A DNA stretch of 28,946 nt from a virus. The translations under genes were made by a program, and so were the position numbers. The notes under the pieces were generated by a model. That model ran no database searches and was not told the DNA's origin. It saw only the letters and a program-made list of their open reading frames with translations. How positions within the stretch are numbered: position 1 is the first letter of the stretch; every line of letters starts with the position of its first letter. Below are positions 2,228 through 20,668 of the stretch, in pieces. The stretch is from IMG/VR virus record IMGVR_UViG_3300045999_010956, positions 1 through 28,946 of that record, one strand, 5' to 3'.

Positions 2228-4678
2228 CTAAACTAAGTAAACTTTCTTACTATCGGTTGAGTAAAGAAGTTTCTTGTTTAATACTTTTGCATTAAAGTTT
2301 TCAGATAAAGTTTGACCTAAACCCTTGTAAGTTAATTCTTTACAGCCGACTAATTTATTTTCATTGACCATTTCAATGACATCGTTTGCATCAAATATAA
2401 CAGGTTTTTTTCTATTATCCTCATCAACGTAAAAAGATTGGATTTGGTCTAAAATATTATTTTCTTTTACGAGATTAAAATTTGAATTTTCTTTTAAAAC
2501 TTTATCTGATTGTTTAACTTTAGGAAGGTCTCTTTGTAAAAGTGCTGCTTTATTTGTACCAAGTTTATTTTTATTTTTAAATTCAATTCTTTTTTGTGAA
2601 TCTTTAAATGCTTTAGAACCAACTTCTTGTGTACTCATTAATGCTTCTTTTCTTGCTAACCATTGTGCATCAACTTCACCATTAGGACCATTTTCAGGTT
2701 GAACATCTTCTAATCCTCTGTGAATTTTTTCAAGATATTCTCTTTGTGCTTCAGATTGGTAATCATATTTTGGAATATCTTTTCTTTGTCTAGAATCTTT
2801 ATCATATGTTAAACCATCACCTACACCTTTTTGAACAAGCATTGTTGTAGTTTTATTACTAGCATCTTTCTTGTAGTAATTGTTAGAATCTTTTTGGGTT
2901 TGATTCTTTAATCTTTCAATATCAAGCAATGCTTTTGGTTTAGCTTCTTCATTTACTAAATCAAGTCTTTGAACTAATCTATTATAATATTCATTTAAAG
3001 TTTTTAATGATAAAGTATTAAATTGTCTTTTATTATAGAACTCAGGCAATTCATTACCTTGATTTTTCAATAAAAATTCAATAATAGACTCTCTATTGTT
3101 TTCTCTAATTAATTCAACTTTTGGACTCTTAAAATTATTTTTATTAGTTTCTAATTTAATATATTGAATATCATCATTCATTAAAGCATCTAAATCAACA
3201 AGACTTTCAGTTGCTTCATTTATTCTTTTTGGTTTTTTAAGGTATTTAACATTTTCACCACCACCAAAATTATGTGATTTAGTATTAGGATGTACAATAC
3301 CTGTTGAATAATCAACTTCCATACCTTTTACTTTTTTCTTACCCTTTTTGAAAACAGGATGAGAAAAATCTTGAAAATCTTGAATACTTCTTTTTACACT
3401 AGGAAGCATATTTTCAGCATCCCACATATTTTGATTTTTCTTCGGACTAAATCCTCTCCTTTGACCATCACCATAAACTTTATAATGAGGATTTGCTACA
3501 GGAATACCACCATTAGGAAATGCACTTCCAACATCACCACCAAAATCTTCATCAATAGTATCTTTTCTAACATATACTTTGTAGACTTCAGAACCTAGAT
3601 TATCAATATCATTACTTCTTCTAAAACCTAAACCATCTTCTTCGCTACCACCATAAAAATTAGCATTACCAACTTCAGATACAACTTCTTCAATAAATTT
3701 GTCTAATTTTTGTTCATCTTCATCACTTAATCCACTAACATCGCCATTAATCAATGCACTCAATGCCCAATCTGGTACTTCATATTCATAAATGTTATCA
3801 TCCATTTCTTCATCAATCATTTCATCCATTTTGCTTCCGTAATATGCTTCATTGATTAACCCAACCCAATTAGATTCATTTAATGAATCATTAATACCTA
3901 GATTATTAAGTTTTTCAACTTTAACAATTTTAATATCTTTAGGTTCAATTTCAGAACCATAAACTCTTGAGATTTCTTCTAAGAAAAATTCTTTTTTATT
4001 ATTATTTAATTCTTCTTGACTTATATCTGAATAATTAAAACCATGTAGGATATGATTTGTTTCTTTTAGTAAAGCGACATGGGTAAAGTTATATTTTTCC
4101 CAATTCTTTTTTAATGATTCATTTAAATTTCTTTTATAAAGATTTTCTTTTGTTACAACAGTAACATCATTTTCATTTAAGAATGGATATTTTGTTATTA
4201 TATCTTTAGTAAAATACTCATCCTTATATGTTTTCAATTCATCATGGTCATAACCTTCATAATTCCAAGATTCTAGAATTTTGTTAGTATTTTTGTTAAT
4301 TGCAAAATGTGTATTTTTGCTTTCTTTAATTATTTTTCCCATTGTATTTTCTTGTACTTTTTTCTTTTTATCAAATTCATATCCTTTATTTACAGCATCT
4401 TTAATCTTTTTATACATATCAAATAATTTCTTATTTGGTTTTACATATTTATGAAATAATAAGATGTTCAAGATTTCATTATAATGATACCCTAGTTTTT
4501 CTTGAGCATTAACCGCTAATGTATCATATTTGGTTTTTAAAAATGAAACTCTGTCAACCAATTCTTCCATTGATTTCAAAGAAAATGTTTTGCGGTTTTT
4601 AAATTCACGCTTTTTTTTCTTAGCAACTGTATTAACTCTGGTGTCAATAGGTTGAGGTTGTAATTGTTGTTTTTCCAT
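2228..4678 (-). CDS. 816-aa multidomain protein with duplicated domain, probably virion/prohead-associated
   Basis: Residues 1-110 are basic and helical. Residues 121-190 and 197-267 are two copies of one domain (THFAINKNTNKIL / THVALLKETNHIL, then NYxxxxxxEL, KxE(Y/F)F, DVTVV/DIKIV, and N(L/D)xL ends). Residues 297-370 resemble a small widespread phage/bacterial domain with (P)DWALxxLINGDxSGLxDE followed by a NDIDNLGSEVY segment. The rest (380-816) is polar and low-complexity, ending in KLLYSTDSKKVYLV. Sites fitting the T4 gp21 cleavage rule occur at domain borders: IKES 117-120, LNES 185-188, LNES 266-269, INEA 275-278, INEA 486-489. This suggests a processed head protein, by inference only. 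It heads the minus-strand unit behind a promoter-like motif (4687-4700) divergent from the 4729 gene. Confidence 0.75.
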   Translation of the reverse strand: MEKQQLQPQPIDTRVNTVAKKKKREFKNRKTFSLKSMEELVDRVSFLKTKYDTLAVNAQEKLGYHYNEILNILLFHKYVKPNKKLFDMYKKIKDAVNKGYEFDKKKKVQENTMGKIIKESKNTHFAINKNTNKILESWNYEGYDHDELKTYKDEYFTKDIITKYPFLNENDVTVVTKENLYKRNLNESLKKNWEKYNFTHVALLKETNHILHGFNYSDISQEELNNNKKEFFLEEISRVYGSEIEPKDIKIVKVEKLNNLGINDSLNESNWVGLINEAYYGSKMDEMIDEEMDDNIYEYEVPDWALSALINGDVSGLSDEDEQKLDKFIEEVVSEVGNANFYGGSEEDGLGFRRSNDIDNLGSEVYKVYVRKDTIDEDFGGDVGSAFPNGGIPVANPHYKVYGDGQRRGFSPKKNQNMWDAENMLPSVKRSIQDFQDFSHPVFKKGKKKVKGMEVDYSTGIVHPNTKSHNFGGGENVKYLKKPKRINEATESLVDLDALMNDDIQYIKLETNKNNFKSPKVELIRENNRESIIEFLLKNQGNELPEFYNKRQFNTLSLKTLNEYYNRLVQRLDLVNEEAKPKALLDIERLKNQTQKDSNNYYKKDASNKTTTMLVQKGVGDGLTYDKDSRQRKDIPKYDYQSEAQREYLEKIHRGLEDVQPENGPNGEVDAQWLARKEALMSTQEVGSKAFKDSQKRIEFKNKNKLGTNKAALLQRDLPKVKQSDKVLKENSNFNLVKENNILDQIQSFYVDEDNRKKPVIFDANDVIEMVNENKLVGCKELTYKGLGQTLSENFNAKVLNKKLLYSTDSKKVYLV
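3878..4318 (-). repeat. Tandem protein-domain duplication inside the 816-aa gene
   Basis: Copy A is encoded at 4109-4318 and copy B at 3878-4090. They align over ~68 residues with shared TH(F/V)A, K-TN-IL, (W/F)NY, EL, K-E(Y/F)F, a V-rich strand and an N-(D/E)SL end. DNA identity is low, so the duplication is old. A shorter, weaker match is present in the scaffold-like gene at 17014-17181. Confidence 0.65.
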
Positions 4679-6114: not shown

Positions 6115-8358
6115 ATGAAAGGTGGTAAAGCAGATAAATTAACATTGCCTCAAATAGCTAAAAAACATGGTGTGCCTATTGAAGATTTAATGTCTCAATT
6201 TAAATTGGGCATTAAAACAGAAATGGAACATACTGACAATAAAAAACAAGCAAAAGAAATTGCTTCAGACCATTTGGCTGAAAATCCAAAGTATTACACA
6301 AAACTTAAAAAAGCAAAGTTGGAAGAAGCAATTGCTAAATCTCTTGTAACAGCAGCATTAGGTTTAGGTTTGATGGGAAATCCATCAGTAAGTAAAGGCA
6401 ATCAAGCTATACCAATAGCACAACAACAACAGCAAAATCAAGATAAATTACCTAAAAAAGTAAGTTTTAGTCGTTCTGAATCAATATCAAACCCTGATTT
6501 AGATTTAGTTCATGGTGCGTTGGGTTCAAAAAGATTAAAAGAAATGGGTGAACTTGATTTTTCACAAGTAGTTAATAATGAATTAAAAAAACAATTTAAT
6601 CAAGGAAAAAAAGCTGATGTATCTAATATAAAAATAAGTACATATGTTCAAGGTAATCAAATTATAACTGAGGCTAGTTGTGATATAGTTGAATCTACCG
6701 ATGGAATTGCTTATACTGAATTTACAACAAGAGGTTCAATTGGTAGTAATTATGAAAGAAGACATGATGAACAAGTAGATGGATTGGTTGATAGATTAAA
6801 AAATAAATACGGTGTTGCTAAACAACTTGATATAATTTATAATAATGAAGAGGGTGATAAAGTTGTTGATAAATCTGCTGTTATTACATTTAAGATAGGT
6901 GGTCGTGATGTTTCTTATAAACAAAGTTTCTTTGTTGCATCAGATTCTAAACAACCTCAAATGCAACAATCACAACAACCTCAGACAATTAGTGGTAAAG
7001 ATTTTGCCGATTTAAGACAAAAATTAAAAGACCAAACAAAAGATATTTCTATAGACCTAAATAGTATTGAAATTGATATGGACAATTATTCAGTTTCATA
7101 TAAACTTGGAGATGAAAAAATAAAAGTTATTTCTTTAATTTATGATAATGCAGGTCAATTAGAAACTAGATTGATTAGTGTTAAAAATCAAAATCCAACT
7201 TTAGAAGTATTAGAAAAGGGTAAGAGTGGAAATGTTGATTGGGCTGTTAGTATAATATTAGCAGATGAAATTTTAAAAGAAAATTTAAATTATCCAATAG
7301 AGTTAAAGAGAAAGAAAAAAATAAGTAATATAGGTTTTGGTGGTTATAGAGAACATACTATTGGTAAAGTTAATTTAAGCGATTTGAAAGTACTTGATAA
7401 TGGAATTGAGATTGCAAAAAATACTTTAAAAAATGATAAGACATTTAAACCTTCAAATAAACCTATTACTGTTGGTGTTGATATAAGTACAGGAGAAAAA
7501 CAATTATTAGATGGGTATCATAGATATGTATCTAATGATGGTCAAGGTATCATGAATGCTTTTTTTATACCAATGAAAAATGGTGATATAATTTCATTTG
7601 ATGAGATAAATGATTCTTCGATTGAAGAAGAAGCATTACCAAAAAAATTAAAATCAGATATTGAAATAGAATATCATAAAAACTTAAATCCACAATTTTG
7701 GTTAAATAATCATTTAAAAAGTGGCATTAGAAAAAATCTTTTAAATCTTGCTAAATTTTATTTTAAACAATTAGATTTAGGTGTTGAACTTAAAGATGTA
7801 ATTTTTACAGGTAGTTTAGCAAATTATAATTATACAAATTTATCTGATGTTGATTTACATCTTATAATTGATTATAAAAAATTAACTAATGATGATGAGT
7901 TTGCAAAAGAATTCTTTAGTAATAAAAGAAGTATTTGGGCTGATTCCAATGAAATTAAAGTAAATGGATTTCCTGTTGAAATTTATGTTCAAGATGTTTC
8001 TGAACTTGATGATAAAGGTATGGGTTCTATGTACTCATTGCTTAATAATAAATGGATTAAAAAACCAAAATATAAATTACCTCAAGTTGAAAAACATTTA
8101 ATAACTACAAAAGTGAATAAATATTTAGATATTTTAAATAAAATATCAATGATGGATGATTCAATAAAAAAGGTTGAGGCATATAACAAAGTATTTGAAA
8201 AAATGAGAACGGATAGAAAAAAAGCAACACAAAAAGAGGGTGAATTTTCTGTTGATAATCTTGTTTTTAAAGTATTAAGAAACAAAGGAGTGTTTGATAT
8301 AATAAAAAATAATAAAAAAGAAATAGTAAATAATTTGTTTTCTATGAAAACTAACTAA
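6115..8358 (+). CDS. DUF5661-like / ParB-like / nucleotidyltransferase fusion protein
   Basis: 747 residues. Residues 1-65 match the small phage domain DUF5661 (GGKADKLT, IAKKHGV, GIKTEMEHT, AKEIASDHLAENPKYYTKL). Residues 69-72 (LEEA) fit a gp21-type cleavage site, followed by a hydrophobic/Gly stretch (77-90) and a poly-Gln linker. Residues ~115-275 are an unrecognised alpha/beta region. Residues ~405-490 contain VGVDISTGEKQLLDGYHRY, resembling the DGxHR core of ParB/sulfiredoxin-type domains. Residues ~560-650 are a DNA polymerase beta-type nucleotidyltransferase: GSLANYNYTNLSDVDLHL with Asp578 and Asp580, and a third acid in VEIYVQD (Glu622 or Asp627). The NTP-transfer chemistry is well supported; the substrate is unknown. 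Position upstream of the head genes and the cleavage site suggest a virion-associated enzyme. Confidence 0.75.
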   Translation: MKGGKADKLTLPQIAKKHGVPIEDLMSQFKLGIKTEMEHTDNKKQAKEIASDHLAENPKYYTKLKKAKLEEAIAKSLVTAALGLGLMGNPSVSKGNQAIPIAQQQQQNQDKLPKKVSFSRSESISNPDLDLVHGALGSKRLKEMGELDFSQVVNNELKKQFNQGKKADVSNIKISTYVQGNQIITEASCDIVESTDGIAYTEFTTRGSIGSNYERRHDEQVDGLVDRLKNKYGVAKQLDIIYNNEEGDKVVDKSAVITFKIGGRDVSYKQSFFVASDSKQPQMQQSQQPQTISGKDFADLRQKLKDQTKDISIDLNSIEIDMDNYSVSYKLGDEKIKVISLIYDNAGQLETRLISVKNQNPTLEVLEKGKSGNVDWAVSIILADEILKENLNYPIELKRKKKISNIGFGGYREHTIGKVNLSDLKVLDNGIEIAKNTLKNDKTFKPSNKPITVGVDISTGEKQLLDGYHRYVSNDGQGIMNAFFIPMKNGDIISFDEINDSSIEEEALPKKLKSDIEIEYHKNLNPQFWLNNHLKSGIRKNLLNLAKFYFKQLDLGVELKDVIFTGSLANYNYTNLSDVDLHLIIDYKKLTNDDEFAKEFFSNKRSIWADSNEIKVNGFPVEIYVQDVSELDDKGMGSMYSLLNNKWIKKPKYKLPQVEKHLITTKVNKYLDILNKISMMDDSIKKVEAYNKVFEKMRTDRKKATQKEGEFSVDNLVFKVLRNKGVFDIIKNNKKEIVNNLFSMKTN

Positions 8359-8376: not shown

Positions 8377-8943
8377 ATGAAAGAAAGGGAATTCAAAAAA
8401 TTGGTATTTGAAAATTTCGTTCAAGCTAAAAAAGAACTGATTAGAGAAGGTTATATTAAAAGAAGTGATAACCTTAATTTTGAAGATGTGTTTAGTGAAA
8501 CTAAAAAAAGAGTTCTTGAAGAACGTGTTAAATCACTTCAAAGAGAAAATGAAATGCTAAAGAAGCAAATAAAAAGAAAAGGCTTGAGAGAAGCAGGTGT
8601 AAGTAACCCAACTGGTTATGGAGAAAGGGGTAGTGATGCATTGGACAACCGATTTAGACAATTTGGTATGAAATTTTTTGATAATCCAACGGATAAGTTA
8701 ACTGATGTTGCAGTCAAATTAGGTATTAAAAGTAATAGTAGAGAATTCGATAGATTAAATGCTATGTTGGGTGATTTTATTAAAAAGGATAAATTAAACT
8801 CACCTGAAAAAATAGAAAAAGCTATTGAATTAATCAATAAATTGGATAGTCAAGAGCCAAGTGATTATTATTCTGCTTTAGTAAGTGGTATAGATATGAT
8901 TTCTAAACCACAATTAACTGAAAACAGAAGGAGAAGATATTAA
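8377..8943 (+). CDS. Hypothetical protein (188 aa), possible prohead-associated
   Basis: 188 residues. The N-terminal 68 are a basic coiled coil (KKRVLEERVKSLQRENEMLKK). Then comes LREA at 70-73, which fits gp21-type cleavage, and a second domain starting VSNPTGYGERGSDALDNRF that is largely helical (residues 85-175) and ends in RRRRY. The layout of a charged helical delta-like segment, a cleavage site and then a compact domain is what one expects of a head-packaged protein, but no family is recognised. It has its own motif upstream and lies 33 nt before the 413-residue gene. Confidence 0.7.
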   Translation: MKEREFKKLVFENFVQAKKELIREGYIKRSDNLNFEDVFSETKKRVLEERVKSLQRENEMLKKQIKRKGLREAGVSNPTGYGERGSDALDNRFRQFGMKFFDNPTDKLTDVAVKLGIKSNSREFDRLNAMLGDFIKKDKLNSPEKIEKAIELINKLDSQEPSDYYSALVSGIDMISKPQLTENRRRRY

Positions 8944-8976: not shown

Positions 8977-10218
8977 ATGATTAAAAGGGCAGACGCAAGT
9001 GGTATCAAAAGAGAAGTAGCAACTAAAGAACAGATTGCTGAAAACTTTAAAAGATTGGCTATTGATAGTTCTAAAAAAGTAGAATTAAAACCATCATTAT
9101 TAAAGACTGTTAAAACTTTAGATGGTAAAACTTTTGGTATTATTCACGAAAATAAATCTTATTACCTTAAATATACAGTAAAACAAGGAAGTGAAAATCC
9201 TATTGATTTTAAACATTTAGATGGGTTAAATTCTAATTTTAGTATTGAAAAATATAATAATTTTCAAAAAGCAGTAAATAAGTTAACATTTATTTGTGAG
9301 GCACAAAATAATGCACATAAATTAAGATTATTAACTGAAGCAGAAGAGGAAGAAACAGAAGAAACGCCAAAAGAAAAAGTTGTAAGTAAAACTGACCAAG
9401 ATAAACTTTTAAAAGATTTAGATACAAAAAAGGACCAAGCTGCAACTCCTGCTGCACCTGCTGCTGATATGGGTGGCGAATTGCCTCCTGCTGAAGCACC
9501 TGCTGCTGATATGGGTGGCGAATTGCCTCCTGCTGAAGCACCTGCTGCTGATATGGGTGGTCAAGCACCTGCTGCTGATGCACCTGTAGATACAACACCT
9601 TCAGGTCAAGGTGTTGAAAGTCCAGAAGCTATATCTGATGAAATTTTAGATAATATGAATAAGCCTGAAGCAGGTGCTGAACCTGCTGCTGCTGAAACTC
9701 CTGCTGCTGAAACTCCTGCTGCTGAAACTCCTGCTGCTGAACCTGCTGCTGCCGAAACTCCTGCTGCTGAAGAACCTGTTGAAGAAGAAGACCCTAAAAA
9801 AGAATTTCAAGAAGCTGTTGGTAAACTTGGACAAGTAATTAATACTCTTCAAGACCAAAAAGCATTTGATGTAAAAGACATTAAGAATGTAATGAACAGC
9901 GTTATTAGTGCAATTGGTAAAGAAGGTTTTAAAGAAGTTGGTGATAATGTTGTTGATTCATTTATTAAAAAAATAAGAGGTTCTCAAGAATCCATCAAAG
10001 TTGATGATACAGAAGAATTACCTGCTGAAGAAGCACCTGAAGAATTACCTGCTGAAGAAGAACCTGCTGAAGAGGAAGGTGAAGAAAAATTAGATGAAAA
10101 CTTTTTAAGGAGTCTTAAAAAAGAAGCTAAACAATTACTTAGAGAACAATTAGAACAAGAACTTATCAAAAGAAAAAAACATATTTTAATTGAACAAATT
10201 AAAAGAAAATTAAAATAA
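8977..10218 (+). CDS. Ala/Pro/Glu-repeat protein (413 aa), possible prohead core component
   Basis: 413 residues. Residues 1-118 are a folded-looking N-terminal part (KTFGIIHENKSYYLKY, FQKAVNKLTFICEAQ). LTEA at 119-122 is identical to the gp23 cleavage tetrapeptide of T4. Residues 122-275 are acidic low-complexity repeats, a 14-residue unit APAADMGGELPPAE and a 5-residue AAETP unit. Residues 275-330 are a helical segment (LGQVINTLQDQ, NVVDSFIKKI), followed by a further Pro/Ala/Glu-rich stretch and a basic C-terminal helix (residues 385-413). Acidic composition, cleavage site and position just before the terminase suggest a scaffold or core protein; this is inference. It is followed after 1 nt by the membrane-protein gene. 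Confidence 0.7.
   Translation: MIKRADASGIKREVATKEQIAENFKRLAIDSSKKVELKPSLLKTVKTLDGKTFGIIHENKSYYLKYTVKQGSENPIDFKHLDGLNSNFSIEKYNNFQKAVNKLTFICEAQNNAHKLRLLTEAEEEETEETPKEKVVSKTDQDKLLKDLDTKKDQAATPAAPAADMGGELPPAEAPAADMGGELPPAEAPAADMGGQAPAADAPVDTTPSGQGVESPEAISDEILDNMNKPEAGAEPAAAETPAAETPAAETPAAEPAAAETPAAEEPVEEEDPKKEFQEAVGKLGQVINTLQDQKAFDVKDIKNVMNSVISAIGKEGFKEVGDNVVDSFIKKIRGSQESIKVDDTEELPAEEAPEELPAEEEPAEEEGEEKLDENFLRSLKKEAKQLLREQLEQELIKRKKHILIEQIKRKLK
9454..9561 (+). repeat. 42-bp direct repeats in the 413-aa gene
   Basis: Two identical 42-bp units at 9454-9495 and 9496-9537 and a partial third to 9561, encoding APAADMGGELPPAE. Perfect DNA identity indicates recent expansion by slippage or recombination. 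The region is GC-rich relative to its surroundings. Confidence 0.85.
9691..9765 (+). repeat. 15-bp tandem repeats (AETPA coding)
   Basis: Five 15-bp units, gctgaaactcctgct and variants. The first three are identical (9691-9735), the fourth encodes AEPAA and the fifth differs by a synonymous change. Confidence 0.85.
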
Positions 10219-10652: not shown

Positions 10653-11090
10653 ATGGAAAAAGAATATATCAATATCGAACCTATTAAGGTTCAAGAAGAG
10701 GATTTAAAATTAGTTTATGTAAATCCTGTTGGTGAAACACATAGTGGTTCACAAAAATTAGAATTCATCTTTTCAAACAATCCTGATGATTGTATTGGAC
10801 CTCAATGGGAAGACCCTTGTGATTTGGGTGTATATCCACCAAGAAAAGGATTTATCAAAAAAGTAATGGAAGTTACATCAAAAAGTATTGAGTTTGATTG
10901 CATTGTTGATTCATCTGAATTCAGAATGCTTGATGCTGTATTTGGTGTTGTTGCTCTTGCTTGGGAATCAGTTGAGGATTATAGAAAAATGTCATCCCTT
11001 AATAAGAGTCTTATTATTTTTAGATACGGTGATTTATATTATAATGTTCGTGAAGTTTTGAGAACTAACGACATAGAATTCACTAGTTAA
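10653..11090 (+). CDS. Conserved-looking hypothetical protein upstream of terminase (145 aa)
   Basis: 145 residues, mixed alpha/beta: LEFIFSNNPDDCIGPQWEDPCD, then a strand-rich middle (KKVMEVTSKSIEFDCIVDSSEF) and an AWESVEDY segment. Its position directly before the large terminase is where T4 has the small terminase gp16, but it lacks the helical coiled-coil look of gp16, so I do not call it that. The stop lies 11 nt before the terminase ATG. Function unknown. Confidence 0.7.
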   Translation: MEKEYINIEPIKVQEEDLKLVYVNPVGETHSGSQKLEFIFSNNPDDCIGPQWEDPCDLGVYPPRKGFIKKVMEVTSKSIEFDCIVDSSEFRMLDAVFGVVALAWESVEDYRKMSSLNKSLIIFRYGDLYYNVREVLRTNDIEFTS

Positions 11091-11096
11091 ACTAAA
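11082..11096 (+). promoter_or_regulatory. Variant promoter-like motif before terminase
   Basis: ACTAGTTAAACTAAA differs from ACTAWTTAWAWTAAA at two positions. It includes the stop codon of the preceding gene and ends 5 nt before the ATG at 11102. Confidence 0.35.
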
Positions 11097-11101
11097 GTCT
11101 T

Positions 11102-12880
11102 ATGACTAAACATGAGTTAATGATGGAATACGCAAAGTGCGCTATTGATATAGAGTACTTTGCAAGAAAATATTGTAAAGTTTGGGATAAGAAAAAACAA
11201 CAATATATTAATTTTGAATTGTTACCACAACAAATTCAAGTATTAGAAAAATACAAAGAAAGTAATAGGGTTTTAGTTGCTAAGTATCGTCAAGGTGGTA
11301 TTACTACTGTAACTTGTTTATATTTAGCACATTCATTAATATTTAGAAAAGATATTAAAGTTGGAGTTGCAGCTAACAAGTTGAAACTTGCAAAGGAAAG
11401 TATCTTCTATCAGATTGCATCCATTATCAATAATCTTCCAAAAGAAATATTCAATAGGATACCTACTGAATCAGATACAAAAGAAATTAAGATTTATAAC
11501 AATGGTGCAACATTACAGGCTTTTGCTGCATCTGCCGATGGTCTAAGAGGTTTTACTCCTGATATACTTTTTATAGATGAAGCAGCCTTCCTTGAAGAAG
11601 GTGAAGAGTTTATGTCATCTGCATCGGGTACAATGTCAGCAGGTGGACAGATTATATTAAATTCAACACCAAGAGGACTTGACCCAACATATTATGCTCG
11701 TTATGAAGGAGCAAGAACTGGAAGGAATAACTTTAAAGTTGTTGAAATTAATTGGTATGAAGACCCAAGATATAATGAAGATTTAATTTGGGTTAGAGGT
11801 GATGAATTTATTGAGGAAAAAGAAGCTATAAAGTACAATGAATTAAAAGCAAAAGGTTATAAACCTTCTTCTTCTTGGTTTAGAGATATGTGTCAAACTT
11901 TCAATAATGACCCAAGAAAAATTGCTCAAGAGTTAGAGAATAAGTTCTTAGGTTCAGGTGGTAACCTTGTTGATGAGGAAACTATTATGAGAGTTGAAAA
12001 AGCTTGTAAACAACCGATTAGAACTGAATATGATAATAATTTTTGGGTTTGGGAAGACCCAATTGTGGGATATGATTATTATTTATCATGTGACGTTGCA
12101 AAAGGTAGTGGTGATGGTGACTATTCAACTATTCAAATATTTAAGAATGATGCAGTAAATATGTTATTAATACAAGTGGCTGAATATCAATCAAGAGTAC
12201 CACTTGAAGTAATGGGTGAGTTATGTTTAGATTATGGTAAAAAATATAATAATGCATATGTTATTGTCGATGTGAGTGGTGGTTGGGGTATATCTGTTGT
12301 TAGATATTTAATTAATAATAAATATAAAAAAATACACTATGATAGACCAAGACAAAATGATTTAAAAATACAATTAAAATCATTTGCTAGAGGAGAACTA
12401 CAACCAGGTTTTACAATGAAAAATGGTGCTATCCGTGATTATGTTTTAAGAGAGTTTGAAAGAAGATTAAGAGAAGGTGAAGCATTGGTTTATTCAATAA
12501 GATTGTTAAGTGAGATTAAAACTTTCGTATTCAATGATAATACAAATAGATATGACCATATGCGTTCAGCACATGATGACTTGTTGATTGCTACAGGTAT
12601 GTTATTTGCAGTTTATATGCATTCAAAAACTATTGGAAATGAATTGAATATTTATCTTAACTATGCTAAGTCAGCAATTGTAAGAAAGGGTGATGAATTT
12701 ATGGAAGCCAATAGAGATTTCCAAGAAAAAATGATAAGTAGAGATGGTCAAGATAAAAATTATGAAAGAATAAGTGATGCAGCAAGACCAAAAGATTGGT
12801 ACACAAATGGTCAAGCTAACCCATTTCCTGAACATGAAAAGCCAAGAACAAATAATAACCCATTTATCTTTGTAAGATAA
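11102..12880 (+). CDS. Terminase large subunit (T4 gp17-like)
   Basis: 592 residues (T4 gp17 is 610). The ATPase domain has a Walker A-type loop KYRQGGITT (61-69), Walker B ILFIDEAAF (155-163, Asp159/Glu160) and the coupling motif NSTPRG (187-192). The RNase H-like nuclease domain shows Asp331 in SCDVAKGSGDGDYST, Asp390 in VIVDVSGGWG and Asp492/493 in HDDLLIATG. Role: the ATP-driven motor that docks on the portal, cuts concatemeric DNA and packs it into proheads. The Walker A lysine of the usual GKT is replaced (GGITT); a Lys precedes the loop at position 61, as in other terminases with displaced lysine. Unlike T4, no tail sheath or tube genes separate it from the portal gene. Confidence 0.95.
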   Translation: MTKHELMMEYAKCAIDIEYFARKYCKVWDKKKQQYINFELLPQQIQVLEKYKESNRVLVAKYRQGGITTVTCLYLAHSLIFRKDIKVGVAANKLKLAKESIFYQIASIINNLPKEIFNRIPTESDTKEIKIYNNGATLQAFAASADGLRGFTPDILFIDEAAFLEEGEEFMSSASGTMSAGGQIILNSTPRGLDPTYYARYEGARTGRNNFKVVEINWYEDPRYNEDLIWVRGDEFIEEKEAIKYNELKAKGYKPSSSWFRDMCQTFNNDPRKIAQELENKFLGSGGNLVDEETIMRVEKACKQPIRTEYDNNFWVWEDPIVGYDYYLSCDVAKGSGDGDYSTIQIFKNDAVNMLLIQVAEYQSRVPLEVMGELCLDYGKKYNNAYVIVDVSGGWGISVVRYLINNKYKKIHYDRPRQNDLKIQLKSFARGELQPGFTMKNGAIRDYVLREFERRLREGEALVYSIRLLSEIKTFVFNDNTNRYDHMRSAHDDLLIATGMLFAVYMHSKTIGNELNIYLNYAKSAIVRKGDEFMEANRDFQEKMISRDGQDKNYERISDAARPKDWYTNGQANPFPEHEKPRTNNNPFIFVR

Positions 12881-12890
12881 AATATTTATT

Positions 12891-12905
12891 TCTATTTAAG
12901 AAAAA
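12891..12905 (+). promoter_or_regulatory. Weak promoter-like motif before portal
   Basis: TCTATTTAAGAAAAA matches 12 of 15 positions of the recurrent motif, 16 nt before the ATG at 12922. In such AT-rich sequence this is weak support alone. Confidence 0.25.
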
Positions 12906-12921
12906 CGTATTTTAATTAATT

Positions 12922-14745
12922 ATGGCAGAAGATAATAAAGGTCTATTTTCAAATATTAATACTTTCTTTAAAAGAGCAACTGATGCACTAGATGCAACAA
13001 ATAATAGATTTGAACCACCGCAAGAAAAACAATTTATTAAAGCGGCATCTCAAGATGATGCGACAAAAACTGCTGTTGAAGATGGTGCTTTAAAATTTTA
13101 TAGAAATCAAAGTACTAAAATTGATAAAGGTAACGACCAAAGAAAATTAATGTACGAGTCGAGCAGAATGATGCTCTACTATGATTATCTTTCAATGGAT
13201 GGTTATCCAATTTTAGGAGCAGCACTTGATTTACTTTCTGAAGAAGCAACAACAACTAAAAGCGATACAGGTCAAATCTTAAATATTTATTGTTCATCTG
13301 ATAAAGTTAAAAAAGAACTTGAAAGGTTCTTTTATAAAGTTATGGATGTTAATACTAATTTATTTTATTGGTGTAGAAATATGTGCCAATATGGAGATAA
13401 TTTCGTATTCCTTGAATTATCAAAAGATAGAGGTGTTGTTGATTTTAGACAACTTGCATCACAATTTGTTGAGAGAAATGAAAAATACGATTCAAAACAA
13501 AGATTTAGAGCATTCTTTAAATATAAAGACCCTAACTCAGGTGGTGAAGAAGAATATTTGGATTATCAAGTAGCACATTTTAGATTATTAGGTACAGGTG
13601 ATAGACTTCCATATGGTTGTAGTGTTTATGAAAAAGTAAGAAGAACTTACAAACAACTTTTTATGATGGAAGATGCGATGATGGTTTATCGTATCACAAG
13701 AGCAGCAGAAAGAAGAATATATAAAGTACCTGTTGGTAATGTTCCTCCTGAAGATGTTCCACAAATTCTTGAAGCATTTGCAAACAATGTAAAGAAAAAG
13801 AAATTGGTTGACCCTAAAACAGGTGATATCAATTTTAAATATAATATTGCTTCAATGGATGAAGATATCTTTGTAGCAGATAGAGGTAATACTTCAGGTA
13901 ATTTTGTTGATACACTTCCAGGAGCATCTAATCTTGAAGCTATATCAGATATTAATTATCTTCGTGATAATTTATTTACAGGATTAGGTATTCATAAAAC
14001 ATTGCTTGGTTTTTCATCTGACCAAGCATCAGGAGAAGGTAAAAACTTATCAATGCTTGATATTCGTTTTGCAAGAAAAGTAAATCGTATTCAACAAGCA
14101 TTACTTGGTGAACTTAATAAAATAGCAATTGTACATTTAGGTTTACTTGGTGGTGATTATGAATCATATATTGATGATTTTAAATTATCACTTAATAATC
14201 CATCAACCGCTTCTGATTTATTACAACTTGAGATTTGGAAGTCAAAGTTAGAAGTATACGCACAAGCAACAACTCCAAATCAGAATTCAGGATTAAAACC
14301 AATGTCAGAACTTATGGCTAGAAAGAAATTTTTCCATATGTCTGAAGAAGATATTATTAATGACCTTCAAGAACAAATGCTTGAATCTAAAATTGGTGAA
14401 GAGGTTAAAGGTGCAGGAATGCTTCTTAAAACTTCAGGTGTCATGGATAAAATGATTAAGTATAAGAATGCAGGTTTTAAAATGGAAGGACAACCACAAC
14501 AAGGTGCTGAACAACAAATAGACAATAGTTTAGGTGGTGGACTAGGTGGTGGTGCTGACATGGGTGGCGGTGCGCCTCCGATGGGTGGCGGTCCTGAATT
14601 AGGTGGTGGTGCGCCTCCGATGGGTGGCGGTCCTGAATTAGGTGGTGGTGCGCCTCCTTCAGGAGGTGGTGCAGGTGGTGCAGGTTTTTTAAGTGAAGAA
14701 ATAATTAAAAAGACTAATGAATTGGATAAACTCTTAAAAGAATAA
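12922..14745 (+). CDS. Portal protein (T4 gp20-like)
   Basis: 607 residues (T4 gp20 is 524). Seen: DYLSMDGYPILGAALDLLSEEAT (about 89-111), WCRNMCQYGDNFVFLEL (about 150-166), ERRIYKVPVGNVPPEDV (mid-protein), VDTLPGASNLEAISDINYL and GEGKNLSMLDIRFARKVNRIQ, all in the order and style of T4-like portals. Twelve copies would form the vertex channel for DNA entry and exit and the neck attachment site. The C-terminal ~80 residues are an added Gly/Pro-rich tail with a 13-residue repeat, ending in a charged helix. LSEE near the end may be a processing site. Neighbours (terminase before, protease and capsid after) support the call. Confidence 0.92.
   Translation: MAEDNKGLFSNINTFFKRATDALDATNNRFEPPQEKQFIKAASQDDATKTAVEDGALKFYRNQSTKIDKGNDQRKLMYESSRMMLYYDYLSMDGYPILGAALDLLSEEATTTKSDTGQILNIYCSSDKVKKELERFFYKVMDVNTNLFYWCRNMCQYGDNFVFLELSKDRGVVDFRQLASQFVERNEKYDSKQRFRAFFKYKDPNSGGEEEYLDYQVAHFRLLGTGDRLPYGCSVYEKVRRTYKQLFMMEDAMMVYRITRAAERRIYKVPVGNVPPEDVPQILEAFANNVKKKKLVDPKTGDINFKYNIASMDEDIFVADRGNTSGNFVDTLPGASNLEAISDINYLRDNLFTGLGIHKTLLGFSSDQASGEGKNLSMLDIRFARKVNRIQQALLGELNKIAIVHLGLLGGDYESYIDDFKLSLNNPSTASDLLQLEIWKSKLEVYAQATTPNQNSGLKPMSELMARKKFFHMSEEDIINDLQEQMLESKIGEEVKGAGMLLKTSGVMDKMIKYKNAGFKMEGQPQQGAEQQIDNSLGGGLGGGADMGGGAPPMGGGPELGGGAPPMGGGPELGGGAPPSGGGAGGAGFLSEEIIKKTNELDKLLKE
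14572..14657 (+). repeat. 39-bp direct repeats in the portal C-terminus
   Basis: Two identical 39-bp units, 14572-14610 and 14611-14649, and the start of a third, encoding APPMGGGPELGGG. GC-rich against an AT-rich background; likely prone to slippage. Confidence 0.85.
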
Positions 14746-14778: not shown

Positions 14779-15552
14779 ATGGTAAATTTTGGTAATGTCA
14801 AGTCAAAATTAAATAAAGCATATTCTCAAGATTTAATTGATAATACTACTAAGTATACAAAAATCTATGAATCTTTTTTAGGTACAGTTAAATCTTCACC
14901 AATTCTAATGTTAGAATATACGATTTATGAGAATTTAAGAAAAACAAATCTTGAGTATAATGAATCTTTGAGATTTATTGAGGCTAATATTTCTGCTTTA
15001 TCTAAGATTGATAAAAATGAATTGCTAAAAGAAAACAAAAAACTTGAAAAGTTTGACCTTAAAGAAATTAATTTATCTGAGGATAAACTTACACTAAATA
15101 AAAACATTGAGAATGTTATAAATGAAAGTGTTTTCAAAAAAGTTACTAATGTTAATAGATTACATGAATCAGTTAATTTTTTAATTGAATCATTAACAAG
15201 GAAAGAGGAAGAAAAATTAGTAAAAACCGATAAAAAATTTAATGTAAATAATATTTTTTTATTAGCCAAGAAAAAATTAGAAGAAAAGTTTTCAAACCTT
15301 CAAACAGATGAAATGGAAATTATTTCAAGTTTTATTAAAGGTGATGAAAAAAATAAAAAAACAGTATTTGAAAATTATAAAAAAAGTACAAAAAATTTCT
15401 TGCTTAAAGAAAAAGATAGTATTAGTTCAGAAGTATTATCGGAATCTTTTAATTTCATTGACTCCTTAGAATATACAAACGATACAGCATTAAATAATTT
15501 GTCCAAACTTTTTGAAATTAAAAATTTAAATTCAAATAATAGTAATGAGTAA
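14779..15552 (+). CDS. Hypothetical protein between portal and protease (257 aa), candidate prohead core protein
   Basis: 257 residues, almost entirely charged helix (Lys/Glu/Asn/Leu-rich), no Trp. It carries several [L/I]xES sites: INES near 113, LHES near 128, LIES near 135 and LSES near 220, fitting the T4 gp21 rule. In T4 the two small core proteins gp67 and gp68 lie in the same interval between portal and protease, so this is a positional analogue, although much larger and without visible similarity. It overlaps the protease gene by 8 nt, suggesting coupled translation. Confidence 0.7.
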   Translation: MVNFGNVKSKLNKAYSQDLIDNTTKYTKIYESFLGTVKSSPILMLEYTIYENLRKTNLEYNESLRFIEANISALSKIDKNELLKENKKLEKFDLKEINLSEDKLTLNKNIENVINESVFKKVTNVNRLHESVNFLIESLTRKEEEKLVKTDKKFNVNNIFLLAKKKLEEKFSNLQTDEMEIISSFIKGDEKNKKTVFENYKKSTKNFLLKEKDSISSEVLSESFNFIDSLEYTNDTALNNLSKLFEIKNLNSNNSNE

Positions 15553-16246
15553 TATACAACTACTAACAGAAGGACAAGAAGGGTACGGTTTACTAGTAGA
15601 AACTGATGCAGGTCTTATAAGTAGCGATTTAACAAATCGTAATAGAAAAATTTTTGAGGACTTAAACCTTAGAGCAAAAAGAGATGACTTTGATGGTCAT
15701 TTTTATATTGATTGCAAACTTCAAGAAGCAGATGTGCTAAATAGAAATGGAAGGGTATATCCTAGAGCAATATTAGAAAAACAAATAAATGAATATCAAA
15801 AATTAATTAATGACTATGCTGCAATTAATGAAGCCGACCACCCCGAATCCGTTACAATATCATTACAAAACATTTCTCATAGGATTGCAAAAACATGGTG
15901 GTCAAATAATGCTGTTTATGGAACACTTGATATTATTGTTAGTGATTCATTTCTAAGAGAAGGTCTTGGTTGGACCATTGGCGATAAGATTGCTCTTTAT
16001 TTACAAAGAAATCTTAAACTTGGTATTTCATCAAGAGGGTTAGGTAGTGTAAAAAAAGTAGGTGGAAAAAATATTGTTCAAGATGATTTTGAACTTATAT
16101 GTTTTGACCTTGTTGCTACACCTTCTACACCTAATGCTTATCTATTTTTAGAAACAAAAGATGATACATTAAAAGAATCTGTTCAAGAATCAAACAATAA
16201 TGTAAAAAAATATGATGATTCGATAAGAAAAATTATTGGTAACTAA
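15545..16246 (+). CDS. Prohead maturation protease (T4 gp21-like)
   Basis: 233 residues (T4 gp21 is 212). Substrate-cleft motif NRNGRVYPR (66-74), catalytic His99 in EADHPES, Ser162/163 in LGISSRG, and a likely third residue Asp188 in ICFDLVATPST fit the T4 gp21-type herpesvirus-assemblin-like serine protease fold. It would be built into the prohead core and would cleave core, capsid and packaged proteins after [L/I]xE. Two sites of that kind are in the protein itself: LTEG (7-10) and LKES (209-212), consistent with self-processing at both ends. It follows the 257-residue gene with an 8-nt overlap and precedes the scaffold. Confidence 0.93.
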   Translation: MSNIQLLTEGQEGYGLLVETDAGLISSDLTNRNRKIFEDLNLRAKRDDFDGHFYIDCKLQEADVLNRNGRVYPRAILEKQINEYQKLINDYAAINEADHPESVTISLQNISHRIAKTWWSNNAVYGTLDIIVSDSFLREGLGWTIGDKIALYLQRNLKLGISSRGLGSVKKVGGKNIVQDDFELICFDLVATPSTPNAYLFLETKDDTLKESVQESNNNVKKYDDSIRKIIGN

Positions 16247-16281: not shown

Positions 16282-18849
16282 ATGAGTAATAAAAAATCTT
16301 TATTGCAAGACAGTTTGCAAGAACTTGAAAATATCAAAAACGAATCTTTGGAATTAGCCAAAGAACAGTTGATTAATGAAAGTGCTGACTTGCTAGAAAA
16401 AAAATCTGCTGCACTATTTGAAAAATTAATTTCTGAAGAAGTTGGTGAGTTTGGTGATATATCTGATGATTATGATGAAGATGAATCTGATGATTATGAT
16501 GAAGAATCTGATGATTATGATAAAGAATCTGATGAAGAACCATTTAATATTGATGAACCTGAAGAACCAGAAATGTCTTTAGATGAAATGTTAGAAAAAT
16601 TAACAGAACCAAAAGAAAAAACTCTTGATGAAATCTTAGCCGAAATTAAAAATTCTGAAGGTATGTATGATGATGAAGAATCTGAAGATGATTCTTCTGA
16701 GGAAGAATATGATGATGAATCTGAGGATGATGAAGAAGAATCTATGGATGATGAAGAAATGTCTTTAGAAGATTTAAAAGATGCTGCTGAAAGAATGGGT
16801 CTTAAATTAGTAAAAGATACTGAAGATGGTGAAGAAGAACTAGAAGATAGTGAAGATGATGAAGAAGAACTAGAAGATACTGATATTGAATTCGATGATG
16901 AAGAATCCGATGAAGATGATGAAGATGATGAATTCATGGATGTTGAAGTTGATGATAAAGTATTAGCAGAATCAAAAAATAAAAAAAGTGTTGATGCTTC
17001 TTACTTAAAGGATGTAGATAATTATAAATGGTTTATTGTTGATGAAAAAAAGAAAAAAGCAGTAAGCGGATGGGAATCTCAATCTGATGCAAAAGATGCA
17101 CTTTCTGATTACGATGGAGACCCTAACTTCAAAGTTGTTGCTTTAAAAACTTTACTTTCTAAGGGCATTAAAGACCCAAGACCAGATTTTAAAAATCCTA
17201 AAAAAATAAATGAAAATAAAAATATGAAAAATAATAGAAAAGAGGCTCTTAAAGATTTAAGAGATGTTAGTTTTAATAGACTTGTTGAGGCATATTACAA
17301 TATGAATGAAAGTGATGCCTTTATTGTCAAAGAAGGAGAGGATGATTTTTATGCACCTGACCCTGATTCAGCATATGAAGATAGATTTGATATTGGTCAT
17401 GAGCATGAAGGTAGTTGGATGGATGAACCACAAGATGATGATGACTATGAAGCGGATGAGCCAGAAGATGAGGATGAAATGGATGAAATGTATGGCATGG
17501 ATGAAATGTATGGCATGGATGAAATGAATTACATGGATGAAGAAGATACTCTTTATGAAGTTAATTTCCCTGAAAGTGAACCACCATCTTTAACTGATGA
17601 AGAACTTAATGAAATGCTTGCTGACATGGATATGGAAGAAGGAATGGATATGGAAAGAGGAATGGGTATGAGAGGTAAAATGGGTATGGAAAGAAATAAA
17701 GGAAATCGTAATGATGATTTTATGGAAAAAGATATGTTTGAAGACCTTACTATGGAAGAACTTGAAGAAATTAAAGAAATGCTTGATGGAGATGATATGG
17801 AATCGAAAGGTTCTCATCAAGGTAAAATGCATAGCCCAAAAGATGATTTTTCGAGTGAAGAAGATATTGAAAGAATGATTTCTGAAATGGAAGCAGATGA
17901 AATGGAAGAATCAAGTTTAAGAAATGATGCTACCAAGAAAAACCGTGGTAATCGAGGTGCTATGCCCCCTAGTGGTAGACCTCATCGTCAATCAGGAATT
18001 CTTGAAGAAGAAATGATGGATGGAGATGAAGAACAACTTGATGAATTTTTTAGTGGCTTAAAAGGTGCTTTTGGACAAGCTGCTGCTGGTATTAGTAAAC
18101 TTGGTTCAACAGCTAAACAAGCTGTTGGTAAATATGCTGCCGAAATTGGACAAGCATATAATAGTGCTGAAGTTAGTAATGAAGTTAAAAAACTTGAAAC
18201 TCTTGCAATGAATTTGGGTAAACAAGTTGGTGCTTTAAATTCTAGACTTCAAAAAGCAGGAAAACAACCATTACCTGCTGCTAGTTTGCTTATGACACTT
18301 ACTAATCAAATTAGAAGTGGTGGTAATATTTCACTTGCAAGTAAAAATATTGGGCAAACACAAGCACAACCACAAGGTCAAGCACAAGGTCAACCAATGC
18401 AAGAAGATGGTGACTATACATTACAAGAACAAGTTAAAAAACTTAAACAAGAAAATAAAGCCTTAAATGAAGGTTTTGTGAATAAAGTTAAATCATTAGA
18501 GAATAAAGTCTATGATGTAACAATTAGTGCATTGAAAGCAGGATTTGTAAACAAGTTTTTACTTGAGCATCCTTTAAGAGAAAACGAAAAATTAGAAATT
18601 ATTCATCGTTTCTCAAACGCACAAACTAAAGAACAAATTAAAGAAACTTATATTTCATTAACAAATGAGTTTGCAAAAGGGCAAACAGTTAAAGATGGTT
18701 CAATGTTGAATGAATCAGTACAAAATAAAGTTGGTAAAGTTCATAGAACTGACAATGCAGTTGTTAGAGAAAAGAACTTAATGAACGAAAATGATGAATC
18801 CAATAGGTTTAAACAATTACTTAACTATAATTTTAATAAGAAAAAATAA
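16282..18849 (+). CDS. Very acidic prohead core/scaffold protein (T4 gp22 position)
   Basis: 855 residues, about three times T4 gp22 (269). Residues 1-50 are helical with INES (31-34). Residues 55-225 are Asp/Glu/Ser tracts. Residues 245-300 hold a small domain (YKWFIVDEKKKKAVSGW ... NFKVVALKTLL) resembling the repeat in the 816-residue protein, preceded by LAES (228-231). Residues 340-545 are Met/Asp/Glu-rich with an 18-bp repeat. Residues 585-700 are Ala/Gly/Gln-rich helix. Residues 715-800 are a coiled coil (EQVKKLKQENKALNEGFVNKVKSLE) typical of scaffolds. LNEG (728-731) and LNES (809-812) are further candidate cleavage sites. Location between protease and capsid gene is that of gp22, the major core protein degraded during head maturation. 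Orthology is by position and composition. Confidence 0.8.
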   Translation: MSNKKSLLQDSLQELENIKNESLELAKEQLINESADLLEKKSAALFEKLISEEVGEFGDISDDYDEDESDDYDEESDDYDKESDEEPFNIDEPEEPEMSLDEMLEKLTEPKEKTLDEILAEIKNSEGMYDDEESEDDSSEEEYDDESEDDEEESMDDEEMSLEDLKDAAERMGLKLVKDTEDGEEELEDSEDDEEELEDTDIEFDDEESDEDDEDDEFMDVEVDDKVLAESKNKKSVDASYLKDVDNYKWFIVDEKKKKAVSGWESQSDAKDALSDYDGDPNFKVVALKTLLSKGIKDPRPDFKNPKKINENKNMKNNRKEALKDLRDVSFNRLVEAYYNMNESDAFIVKEGEDDFYAPDPDSAYEDRFDIGHEHEGSWMDEPQDDDDYEADEPEDEDEMDEMYGMDEMYGMDEMNYMDEEDTLYEVNFPESEPPSLTDEELNEMLADMDMEEGMDMERGMGMRGKMGMERNKGNRNDDFMEKDMFEDLTMEELEEIKEMLDGDDMESKGSHQGKMHSPKDDFSSEEDIERMISEMEADEMEESSLRNDATKKNRGNRGAMPPSGRPHRQSGILEEEMMDGDEEQLDEFFSGLKGAFGQAAAGISKLGSTAKQAVGKYAAEIGQAYNSAEVSNEVKKLETLAMNLGKQVGALNSRLQKAGKQPLPAASLLMTLTNQIRSGGNISLASKNIGQTQAQPQGQAQGQPMQEDGDYTLQEQVKKLKQENKALNEGFVNKVKSLENKVYDVTISALKAGFVNKFLLEHPLRENEKLEIIHRFSNAQTKEQIKETYISLTNEFAKGQTVKDGSMLNESVQNKVGKVHRTDNAVVREKNLMNENDESNRFKQLLNYNFNKKK
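17482..17535 (+). repeat. 18-bp tandem repeat (DEMYGM coding)
   Basis: Two identical 18-bp units gatgaaatgtatggcatg (17482-17499 and 17500-17517) and a diverged third (17518-17535) in the scaffold gene. Confidence 0.8.
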
Positions 18850-18892: not shown

Positions 18893-20668
18893 ATGTACGG
18901 AATTACCGAAATTTTAAATTCAGGAAAAGTTGGACAGGAGTACAAGCAACTTCGTGAACAACGTGAATTGATTACCGAAAAATGGAATCAATTCGGATTG
19001 CTAGATGGCCTTGAGGGGTCTATGGCAGAAAACATCGCTCAGTTATATGAGAACCAAGCGTCTTACCTAATCAATGAATCAACTGATGCTACATCTTCAG
19101 GTTCATTTGAGACAGTTGCGTTTCCAATCATCAGACGAGTTTTCCAAAAATTGCTTGCAAATGAAATCGTATCAGTTCAGGCTATGAATATGCCAATTGG
19201 TCGTTTGTATTTCATTAACCCTAAAATCTCTGTTAGAACTAACAATAACACCCAACATAGTGCATTTGATGGTGTTTATTCTAATGCTGCTGCTAACTAT
19301 AATTCAACTTTCCCTTATGCAAAATCAGCAGGTACTACTTACCAAACCACTTCATTGTATGATTCATTCTACAATAATGGTAGTGATTTTGATGATATTG
19401 GTGGTCTTTTTGACAGAACTAAAGGTAGAGTTAATCCTAGGTCTATTGCTGCTGCTACAATCGTTTCAGGTACTCCAGGTGGTGCAAATGGTTCACCAAG
19501 AGTTTTAGTTAAATTCTCAGGATTTACTATTACCAATGAAGGTAAGTTATCAGGCCCAATTGGTAATCCTGTTGATACTGAATCATTCTTAATGAGTTTA
19601 AAAATTACAGCAACTTCTGCTTTAACTTCTCAGGCTGATGGTTCAACTATCATTGCAGCAGGTGACCCAATTCCTTTTAGACTTCCAATGCAAGCTTATG
19701 CAAAAGAAATCGTTGCTAAAGGAACTGATTTTATTATTGTTGAGTTAATTCTTAACTCACCTATAAGTGGTGGAACAGTTTATGGTTCAAATACTTATGG
19801 TACAGGTACTTTTACAGGTTTAAAATCTGCGGCTGCATTTACTGCTGCTAACCTTACTGCTACTTGGAAAGAATACTCTTCTATGGAAGAAGATGCTGAA
19901 ATTCCTCAAGTAACCTTTACTTTTGATTTCATTGACGTTTCTGTTGAAAAGAGAATGTTAGGTGCTACCTTCACTCCTGAACTTCAGCAAGACGTTAACG
20001 CTTTCCACTCAATTGATGTTGAGGCTGAATTAACTGCTCTTCTTTCTGAAGTTGTTTCAGGTGAAATTGATAGAGAAATTCTAAGAGACCTTCGCAAATC
20101 TGCTTCACATGTTGAAGTTTTTGATTACGCAGCATTTGATAGAAGATTTAATAATGTTGGTGCAGGTTTTGCAATTACTCGTAAAGATTACAACCAAGAG
20201 TTGATTACTAAGATTAATCAAATCTCTGCTCGTATCATGAAATTTACTCTTCGTGGTGGTGCAAATTGGGTTGTATGTTCTCCTGAAATTGCTGCTGTTC
20301 TTAATGACCTTGAGTACTTCCATGCTACTGATGCTTCTGCTGAAGAAACTAAGTTCTCTTTAGGTATTGAAAAAGTTGGTTCAGTTGCTAACAGATACAC
20401 AGTATATGTTGATGCTTATGCTCCTGCTGGTGTTGTTCTTGTAGGACACAAAGGAGATTCAATCTTCCACGCAGGTTACATCTACGCTCCATATGTACCG
20501 TTGATGCTTATGCCTAAAACCATTAACCCTGCTGACTTCAAACCTGTAATGGGCATCATGACTCGTTATGCGAAGAAAGTTGTTAACAACAGGTTCTATG
20601 GTAAAGTATTGGTACAAGGTTTACCAAGTGCTTCTCCTTCTGAATTCATGTTAGATACAATTAACTAA
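18893..20668 (+). CDS. Major capsid protein (T4 gp23-like)
   Basis: 591 residues (T4 gp23 is 521). Seen: LLDGLEGSMAENIAQLYENQ (about 36-55), FPIIRRVFQKLLANEIVSVQ (about 77-96) then AMNMPIGRLYF, and FTPELQQDVNAFHSIDVEAE with LTALLSEVVSGEIDREIL, all classic gp23 signatures. LINE-S at 59-63 aligns with the known gp23 cleavage LTE-A at residue 65, so the mature protein probably begins at Ser63. Extra length lies mainly in the 110-310 region, possibly an insertion domain. Compared with neighbours it uses more C-ending codons (aac, atc, ttc, tac), as expected for the most abundant virion protein. It has its own promoter-like motif and a terminator right after. Confidence 0.96.
   Translation: MYGITEILNSGKVGQEYKQLREQRELITEKWNQFGLLDGLEGSMAENIAQLYENQASYLINESTDATSSGSFETVAFPIIRRVFQKLLANEIVSVQAMNMPIGRLYFINPKISVRTNNNTQHSAFDGVYSNAAANYNSTFPYAKSAGTTYQTTSLYDSFYNNGSDFDDIGGLFDRTKGRVNPRSIAAATIVSGTPGGANGSPRVLVKFSGFTITNEGKLSGPIGNPVDTESFLMSLKITATSALTSQADGSTIIAAGDPIPFRLPMQAYAKEIVAKGTDFIIVELILNSPISGGTVYGSNTYGTGTFTGLKSAAAFTAANLTATWKEYSSMEEDAEIPQVTFTFDFIDVSVEKRMLGATFTPELQQDVNAFHSIDVEAELTALLSEVVSGEIDREILRDLRKSASHVEVFDYAAFDRRFNNVGAGFAITRKDYNQELITKINQISARIMKFTLRGGANWVVCSPEIAAVLNDLEYFHATDASAEETKFSLGIEKVGSVANRYTVYVDAYAPAGVVLVGHKGDSIFHAGYIYAPYVPLMLMPKTINPADFKPVMGIMTRYAKKVVNNRFYGKVLVQGLPSASPSEFMLDTIN

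Follow-up and report, generated by a model that had tools for sequence, protein, structure and literature searches.

A candidate head-targeted, multidomain phage protein carrying a Pol-beta nucleotidyltransferase domain, encoded beside a T4-like head operon

The window, the whole 28,946-nucleotide stretch of viral DNA analysed here, carries a 747-residue open reading frame (NT747) ahead of a series of phage head genes. The features used in the analysis are as follows.

2228..4678, minus strand: g816 (DUF6926), a probable second prohead-core or cargo protein
6115..8358, plus strand: NT747, ORF with ATG start, 747 aa, laid out as DUF5661, alpha/beta region, ParB-like motif segment and Pol-beta NTase
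6151..6312, plus strand: DUF5661 domain, residues 13-66 (PF18905), kept in all close relatives
6319..6327, plus strand: LEE (69-71) before Ala72, a gp21-type [LI]xE site after DUF5661; KLEE[AT]I in all close relatives
6553..7269, plus strand: exchangeable middle, alpha/beta region, residues 147-385, AlphaFold2 (AF2) pLDDT mostly 75-90; missing from L006, L008 and L010
7273..7281, plus strand: LKE (387-389) before Asn, an [LI]xE site marking the swapped cassette's left edge
7357..7584, plus strand: segment with DGYHRY (466-471; 7510-7527), ParB/Srx-like by this motif only; an unrelated domain stands here in L003
7621..7629, plus strand: IEE (503-505) before Glu, an [LI]xE site directly ahead of the NT domain; [IL]xE there in most close relatives
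7666..8355, plus strand: Pol-beta superfamily nucleotidyltransferase (NT) domain, residues about 518-747, from AF2 pLDDT 91.4, fold matches and phrog_36119
residues 566-570: GSLAN motif of the NT domain
7843..7863, plus strand: SDVDLHL (577-583) with catalytic Asp578 and Asp580, invariant in 63 sequences
7975..7995, plus strand: VEIYVQD (621-627) with the third acidic residue Glu622, invariant in 63 sequences
8377..8943, plus strand: g188, prohead-core-like, rich in [LI]xE, 19 bp 3' of NT747
8977..10218, plus strand: g413, prohead-core-like, with Ala/Pro/Glu repeats
11102..12880, plus strand: terminase large subunit (TerL; PF03237 2.5e-10, phrog_2 1.3e-37)
12922..14745, plus strand: gp20-type portal (PF07230 2.8e-67)
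15545..16246, plus strand: gp21-type prohead protease, proposed to do the processing (phrog_207 3.9e-42)
16282..18849, plus strand: scaffold-like acidic protein, rich in [LI]xE
18893..20668, plus strand: gp23-type MCP, predicted cut LINE-S at residue 62 (phrog_138 3.6e-67)

TerL and, further along the same strand, the portal (gp20-type), prohead protease (gp21-type), scaffold-like protein and MCP (gp23-type) identify a T4-like head operon, and NT747 lies just upstream of it, where an earlier note on this DNA had placed it. Among isolates, Flavobacterium phage Immuto has the closest TerL, at 28.9% identity, from which a Bacteroidota host was guessed; the T4-like phage probably infects Bacteroidota. 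The gene order g148b-NT-g188-g413-g138-g145-TerL-portal is kept in twelve near relatives. The head-operon position is also kept in nine far-diverged relatives, several retaining the order NT-g413-g145-TerL with an NT identity of about 35%. Elsewhere in the window an IMPDH/GMP-reductase-like gene (PF00478 5e-35) lies at 57-1145 on the minus strand. In the near relative L006, in-frame insertions interrupt the portal gene (11018-14191; 462 residues) and the prohead protease gene (14991-16148; 151 residues). They begin in an intein-like manner, with CLSLDTKIKL and CHRETAEV, and their flanks are 93-100% identical to the window proteins.

The DUF5661-like N-terminus that the earlier note had proposed was confirmed by a Pfam search, which matched PF18905 to residues 13-66 with an E of 1.4e-15 and 57.8 bits against a gathering cut-off of 27. 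Behind it the proposed gp21-type site is present as a motif, KLEE followed by Ala at residues 68-72, and is kept in close relatives, giving the same predicted mature start at Ala72. The NT domain is the only enzymatic assignment in NT747 of the window, the middle having no Pfam match, and Pfam matched neither an ART domain nor a peptidase (an embedded zincin metallopeptidase, present in some relatives) in NT747. Used as a query in the sequence scan, the alpha/beta middle retrieved near relatives only. The segment that follows had been called ParB-like: the string DGYHRY does stand at residues 466-471 but a ParB profile match is absent. Neither PF02195 run against the window nor a Pfam search with the segment gave a match, and the ParB/sulfiredoxin resemblance of residues 415-490 is one of motif only. 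The segment was in effect unmodelled by AF2 (pLDDT about 30) and had no relatives in the viral sequence scan.

In the C-terminal part, phrog_36119 (function not assigned) covers residues 515-739 of NT747 in a PHROG search (E 5.6e-45), and a Pfam match to an MTPAP-like central domain (E 0.014) is a mere hint of a nucleotidyltransferase. The polymerase-beta-type active site had been described as intact, and its motifs are indeed present, with G566, S577, D578, D580, H582 and E622 invariant in 63 aligned phage sequences together with W529, S641, W647, P651, R701, E710, N715, K719, L721 and R722. The structure prediction suggested as a check gave, for the NT domain modelled alone with AF2, a pLDDT of 91.4 and at the level of the fold a predicted assembled Pol-beta domain, so that the unassembled structure named as a refuting outcome did not appear in the model. 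The best match to this model by VIA-align was 2rff (Z 7.3, rmsd 5.0, 106 aligned), followed by 1ylq (Z 6.8) and by TUTases (Tailor), FAM46, MNT antitoxin, AadA and CD-NTases at Z about 5.5-6.5; a Z below 8 is weak singly, but the rows for the catalytic half are mostly Pol-beta NTases. An independent profile search also found 2rff with the GS and DxD motifs aligned, and Foldseek matched the model to CdnE, AAD(9), ANT(6), CCA-adding enzymes, CutA and MNT. The dN/dS of the NT part was about 0.2-0.33 in most pairs and 0.09-0.49 across valid pairs, L041 pairs being left out, and on these sequence comparisons the domain is under purifying selection. Taken together the invariant residues, the phrog_36119 match, the spread over at least 590 viral contigs (see below), the dN/dS values and the fold matches put the active site beyond chance. 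Membership of the Pol-beta nucleotidyltransferase superfamily is secure, with transfer activity predicted. With MNT antitoxin, AadA/ANT, TUTases and CD-NTases the domain shares the GS and DxD motifs and a third acid on a Pol-beta palm but matches them at a Z of only about 5-7, and its C-terminal helices have no clear counterpart there. A subfamily could not be assigned from structure since the TUTase, MNT, AadA and CD-NTase matches were tied, and the absence of a family from the fold-match lists does not exclude that family.

The viral sequence scan found relatives of the NT domain on at least 590 viral contigs, while 84,980 bacterial and archaeal genomes held 21, all in MAGs and many on short contigs; by this distribution of sequences the family is a phage family. 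Exactly one copy was present in each of nine large phage contigs. More than half of the NT-bearing ORFs (78 of 138, a redundant count) are over 60 residues longer than the domain. TerL lies at most 6 kb downstream of 19 of 119 unique NT genes, nine of the 19 being far from the window's family, and in L119, L125 and L133 the NT gene has an FKxWxLNE-like leader and lies 2.6 kb before the prohead protease and 4.7 kb before the MCP gene. Two contigs filed under bacterial genomes, which are probably prophages or phage contigs, encode an ART-PolyVal-like domain fused to an NT domain (L159 5623-8454 and L160 5446-8415), and in both a portal gene follows 2-3 kb further on.

The gene stands at the same place in near relatives that include L003, L005, L006, L007, L008, L010, L041, L043 and L067. 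What stays constant in them is an initial stretch of some 75 residues, with KAKLEE(A/T)I at its end, and a final one of some 245, while the middle varies. In the window the middle consists of the alpha/beta region and the DGYHRY segment, in L007 and L005 of the alpha/beta region alone, in L003 of the alpha/beta region with a different domain and in L008 of another domain, while L010 (322 aa) and L041 (335 aa) have no insert between DUF5661 and NT. In DNA comparison of the window with L003 the flanks are mostly 98-100% identical against about 42-51% for residues 384-505 or so, which on sequence is a clean cassette replacement, with the LKE and IEE sites as its edges. The g188 gene is hypervariable, being 58% identical to that of L003 against 99.8% for TerL, with a second replaced DNA stretch. 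In L043 (1183 aa) and L067 (901 aa), which come from different samples, extra domains stand ahead of DUF5661 in one frame, namely a PolyA_pol/CCA-adding head (3.1e-22 in L043) together with its RNA-binding domain, and HD. In L069, DUF5661 and a diverged NT (40% identical) form a single 1111-aa protein, an independent sign that DUF5661 and NT belong together. At least two biochemically disparate domains in one chain are clear in L043, L067 and L069.

The specificity of the prohead protease in this lineage was read from the MCP, in which SYLINE-STDATS of the window aligns with KQIVSE-ANVTG of Immuto; the LINE-S cut also aligns with the end of the T4 gp23 propeptide. A hand-chosen set of head-cluster proteins from the window contains 46 [LI]xE[ASGN] sites against 16.5 expected, with 0 of 300 shuffles as high. 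The remaining window proteins contain 11 against 9.8 expected, and control motifs were at most slightly in excess. An unselected ranking of the 156 ORFs of a 170-kb relative has among its top nine g816, the scaffold, g257, g188, the protease and g413, which surround the NT gene. The relative of g816 ranks highest of all ORFs in the 170-kb genome for [LI]xE[ASGN] excess.

Within NT747 there are seven [LI]xE sites against 8.0 expected, and in its L067 relative 15 against 11.1 (p 0.15), such that the density of sites was rejected as proof of cleavage. Three of the seven stand at breaks in the architecture (69-71, 387-389 and 503-505), and in L043 and L067 LNE is present at both new junctions (NLNE-NES or KLNE-NES; GLNE-KQ). 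L041 and L067 are without a strict [LI]xE directly before NT. Across 30 non-redundant N-terminally extended NT proteins, sites peak 9-14 residues before NT (17 against 0-7 in other bins). The fraction of linkers before NT with a site was 0.67 against 0.52 for composition-shuffled linkers, with 1 of 500 random windows as high, an excess above random windows but not clearly above shuffled linkers. The placement of [LI]xE at the NT747 junctions is suggestive of predicted protease cuts.

Of five isolates examined, four have DUF5661 within a head-gene cluster. It is part of gp080 of Immuto a few genes upstream of TerL, stands in S-SRM01 and DSL-LC02 between the genes of the small and the large terminase subunit, and in Vibrio phage VPs20 is fused to DUF2213 between the TerL and DUF2184 genes. 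The exception is Caulobacter phage Cr30, in which DUF5661 and NT are separate genes in the replication region. DUF5661 also occurs in one archaeal control genome. The literature search found no paper naming DUF5661 and no virion proteomics bearing on NT747.

Packaging of NT747 in the phage head is suggested by the head-operon position, the occurrence of DUF5661 in head clusters, the junction sites, the core-like neighbours and the NT fusions, and we consider the case for and against it about evenly balanced. The fuller reading, in which NT747 is a 'polyvalent' protein that is targeted to the head, is processed by the prohead protease and delivers a Pol-beta NT, is similarly poised, with roughly an even chance of being correct. 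From the same evidence we infer a possible course of head entry, cleavage, injection and function. NT747 would be synthesised along with the head proteins and DUF5661, as the first 71 residues, would take it into the prohead core as a propeptide. The gp21-type protease would then cut after LEE (69-71), at LKE (387-389) and at IEE (503-505) to release the middle modules and, as a fragment of about 242 residues, the NT. These would exit the head together with the DNA, and early in infection the injected NT would put a nucleotide on a target of the host or the phage. A more ambitious version, which we hold to be possible but doubtful, is that T4-like phages maintain a dedicated polyprotein cargo locus by the terminase operon, with DUF5661 for entry, exchangeable effector cassettes between protease sites and a constant Pol-beta NT, and that the head protease, in place of an embedded metallopeptidase, would free separate injected enzymes while the head matures.

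Comparable systems are known. In T4, gp21 cuts Alt at ITE-6 and LTE-619 (PMC5694885), and ARTs are often packaged in myoviruses (PMC9503650). NT747 resembles T4 Alt and the internal proteins in its T4-like head-gene neighbourhood, in an N-terminal segment ending in [LI]xE and in an enzyme cargo predicted to hit the host. It differs in having an NT in place of an ADP-ribosyltransferase, in its extra internal sites and in a DUF5661 segment of about 71 residues against a leader of 6-20 residues, and its packaging is a prediction. Propeptides of 111-130 residues occur in SPN3US head proteins (PMC7411985). Polyvalent proteins are packaged, injected and multidomain, with processing by a zincin peptidase common (Iyer et al. 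2017; PMC5512222). They share with NT747 a place near head genes and exchangeable modules; several unrelated enzymatic domains per chain are a feature of its relatives, and ART-PolyVal is joined to NT in L159 and L160. NT747, by contrast, is without an embedded metallopeptidase, has prohead protease sites instead and combines a DUF5661 propeptide with a larger, phage-borne Pol-beta NT, whereas the Pol-beta NTases of polyvalent proteins are minimal, NTox45-like and restricted to conjugative elements (PMC5512222). Since injected multidomain phage proteins and these Pol-beta domains have been published, the suggestion of a 'new effector type' was too strong.

As to the target of the NT, an RNA 3' end or tRNA is the choice we tentatively lean to, at somewhat below an even chance, with a protein, or a small molecule or nucleotide signal, each a little less likely. 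The fusion partners of NT across the family comprise HAD 5'-nucleotidase-type, cytidylyltransferase-like, ligase-like (KTDGQ), Zn-protease, M91, DUF192 and ART-PolyVal domains, and as a whole lean to RNA or nucleotide chemistry, although fusion is no proof of a shared substrate. One specific proposal, which concerns the target and overlaps with the preferred explanation, is that the NT, injected or not, restores 3' ends cut by host anticodon nucleases in the manner of RlaP or CCA-adding enzymes. Repair of this kind would fit the fusions with the CCA-adding enzyme and HD, with ligase-like KTDGQ/KLDGQ domains (L098 and L082), with RegB-like domains and with HAD, and phage NTases have been proposed for RNA repair (PMC7824862). 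However, RlaP (PF10127), a Pol-beta superfamily member common in large phages, gave no match in the window at E <= 10, the structure matches are equal to protein-, RNA- and drug-modifying NTases, and polyvalent fusion partners need not share a pathway. On balance repair is a tentative proposal, less probable than not.

The main alternative to packaging is that NT747 is a late cytosolic enzyme, the NT being co-transcribed with head genes but never in the virion, with a late task in the infected cell such as RNA or nucleotide metabolism, and DUF5661 having some other role. Many stand-alone NT relatives lie in replication regions and most are without a leader, and phrog_36119, while of the same NT family (E 5.6e-45), is likewise stand-alone and often in a replication region. 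Fourteen of the 119 NT genes lie beside a phage DNA polymerase, such that the family is not intrinsically virion-borne. A T4-type leader (MKxYxxFIxE-like) was sought on stand-alone NTs and occurred in 9 of 96 of these and in 34 of 931 neighbours (p 0.014), a weak signal given the location of some such NTs in replication regions. Nucleotide or RNA chemistry would fit the occurrence of HAD 5'-nucleotidase-type domains fused to the NT or encoded next to it, and the separate DUF5661 and NT genes of Cr30 also speak for this alternative. Set against this, DUF5661 is in the head clusters of the four other isolates, prohead-core-like genes flank NT747 on both sides and the cassette junctions coincide with protease-type sites, which leaves a cytosolic role unlikely, though of some weight. 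That DUF5661 makes NT747 a part of the prohead core or scaffold that head building requires, with the NT acting during assembly, would accord with the DUF5661-DUF2213 fusion of VPs20 and the core-like neighbours, but purifying selection on a catalytic domain and a middle that is so drastically swapped are unlike a scaffold and make such a role improbable.

If delivery of the NT by a head-targeted, processed NT747 is correct, a very common but unnamed phage NT family on at least 590 viral contigs would gain a role in early infection, and DUF5661 would be a head-entry domain from which injected proteins could be predicted in many phages. The prohead protease would also release effectors from polyproteins, and the swapped cassettes would amount to a list of candidate anti-host enzymes.

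Three further arrangements of DUF5661 were observed. The same RegB-like domain, with a weak match to Pfam RegB (0.004), stands behind DUF5661 in L069 (3778-7113) and in Immuto gp080 (L063 13189-13947); it is a further candidate cargo of DUF5661 and may be an RNase. In L016 (9566-10391), at the end of the locus, a ParB-like GNTR-motif segment is followed by a TINE-S joint and then DUF5661. Two cyanophage proteins encoded between gp16 and gp17 (L065 4881-6710 and L066 4857-6854) are made up of small basic modules, DUF5661 and DUF6321 among them, split by [LIV]xE and are polyprotein-like.
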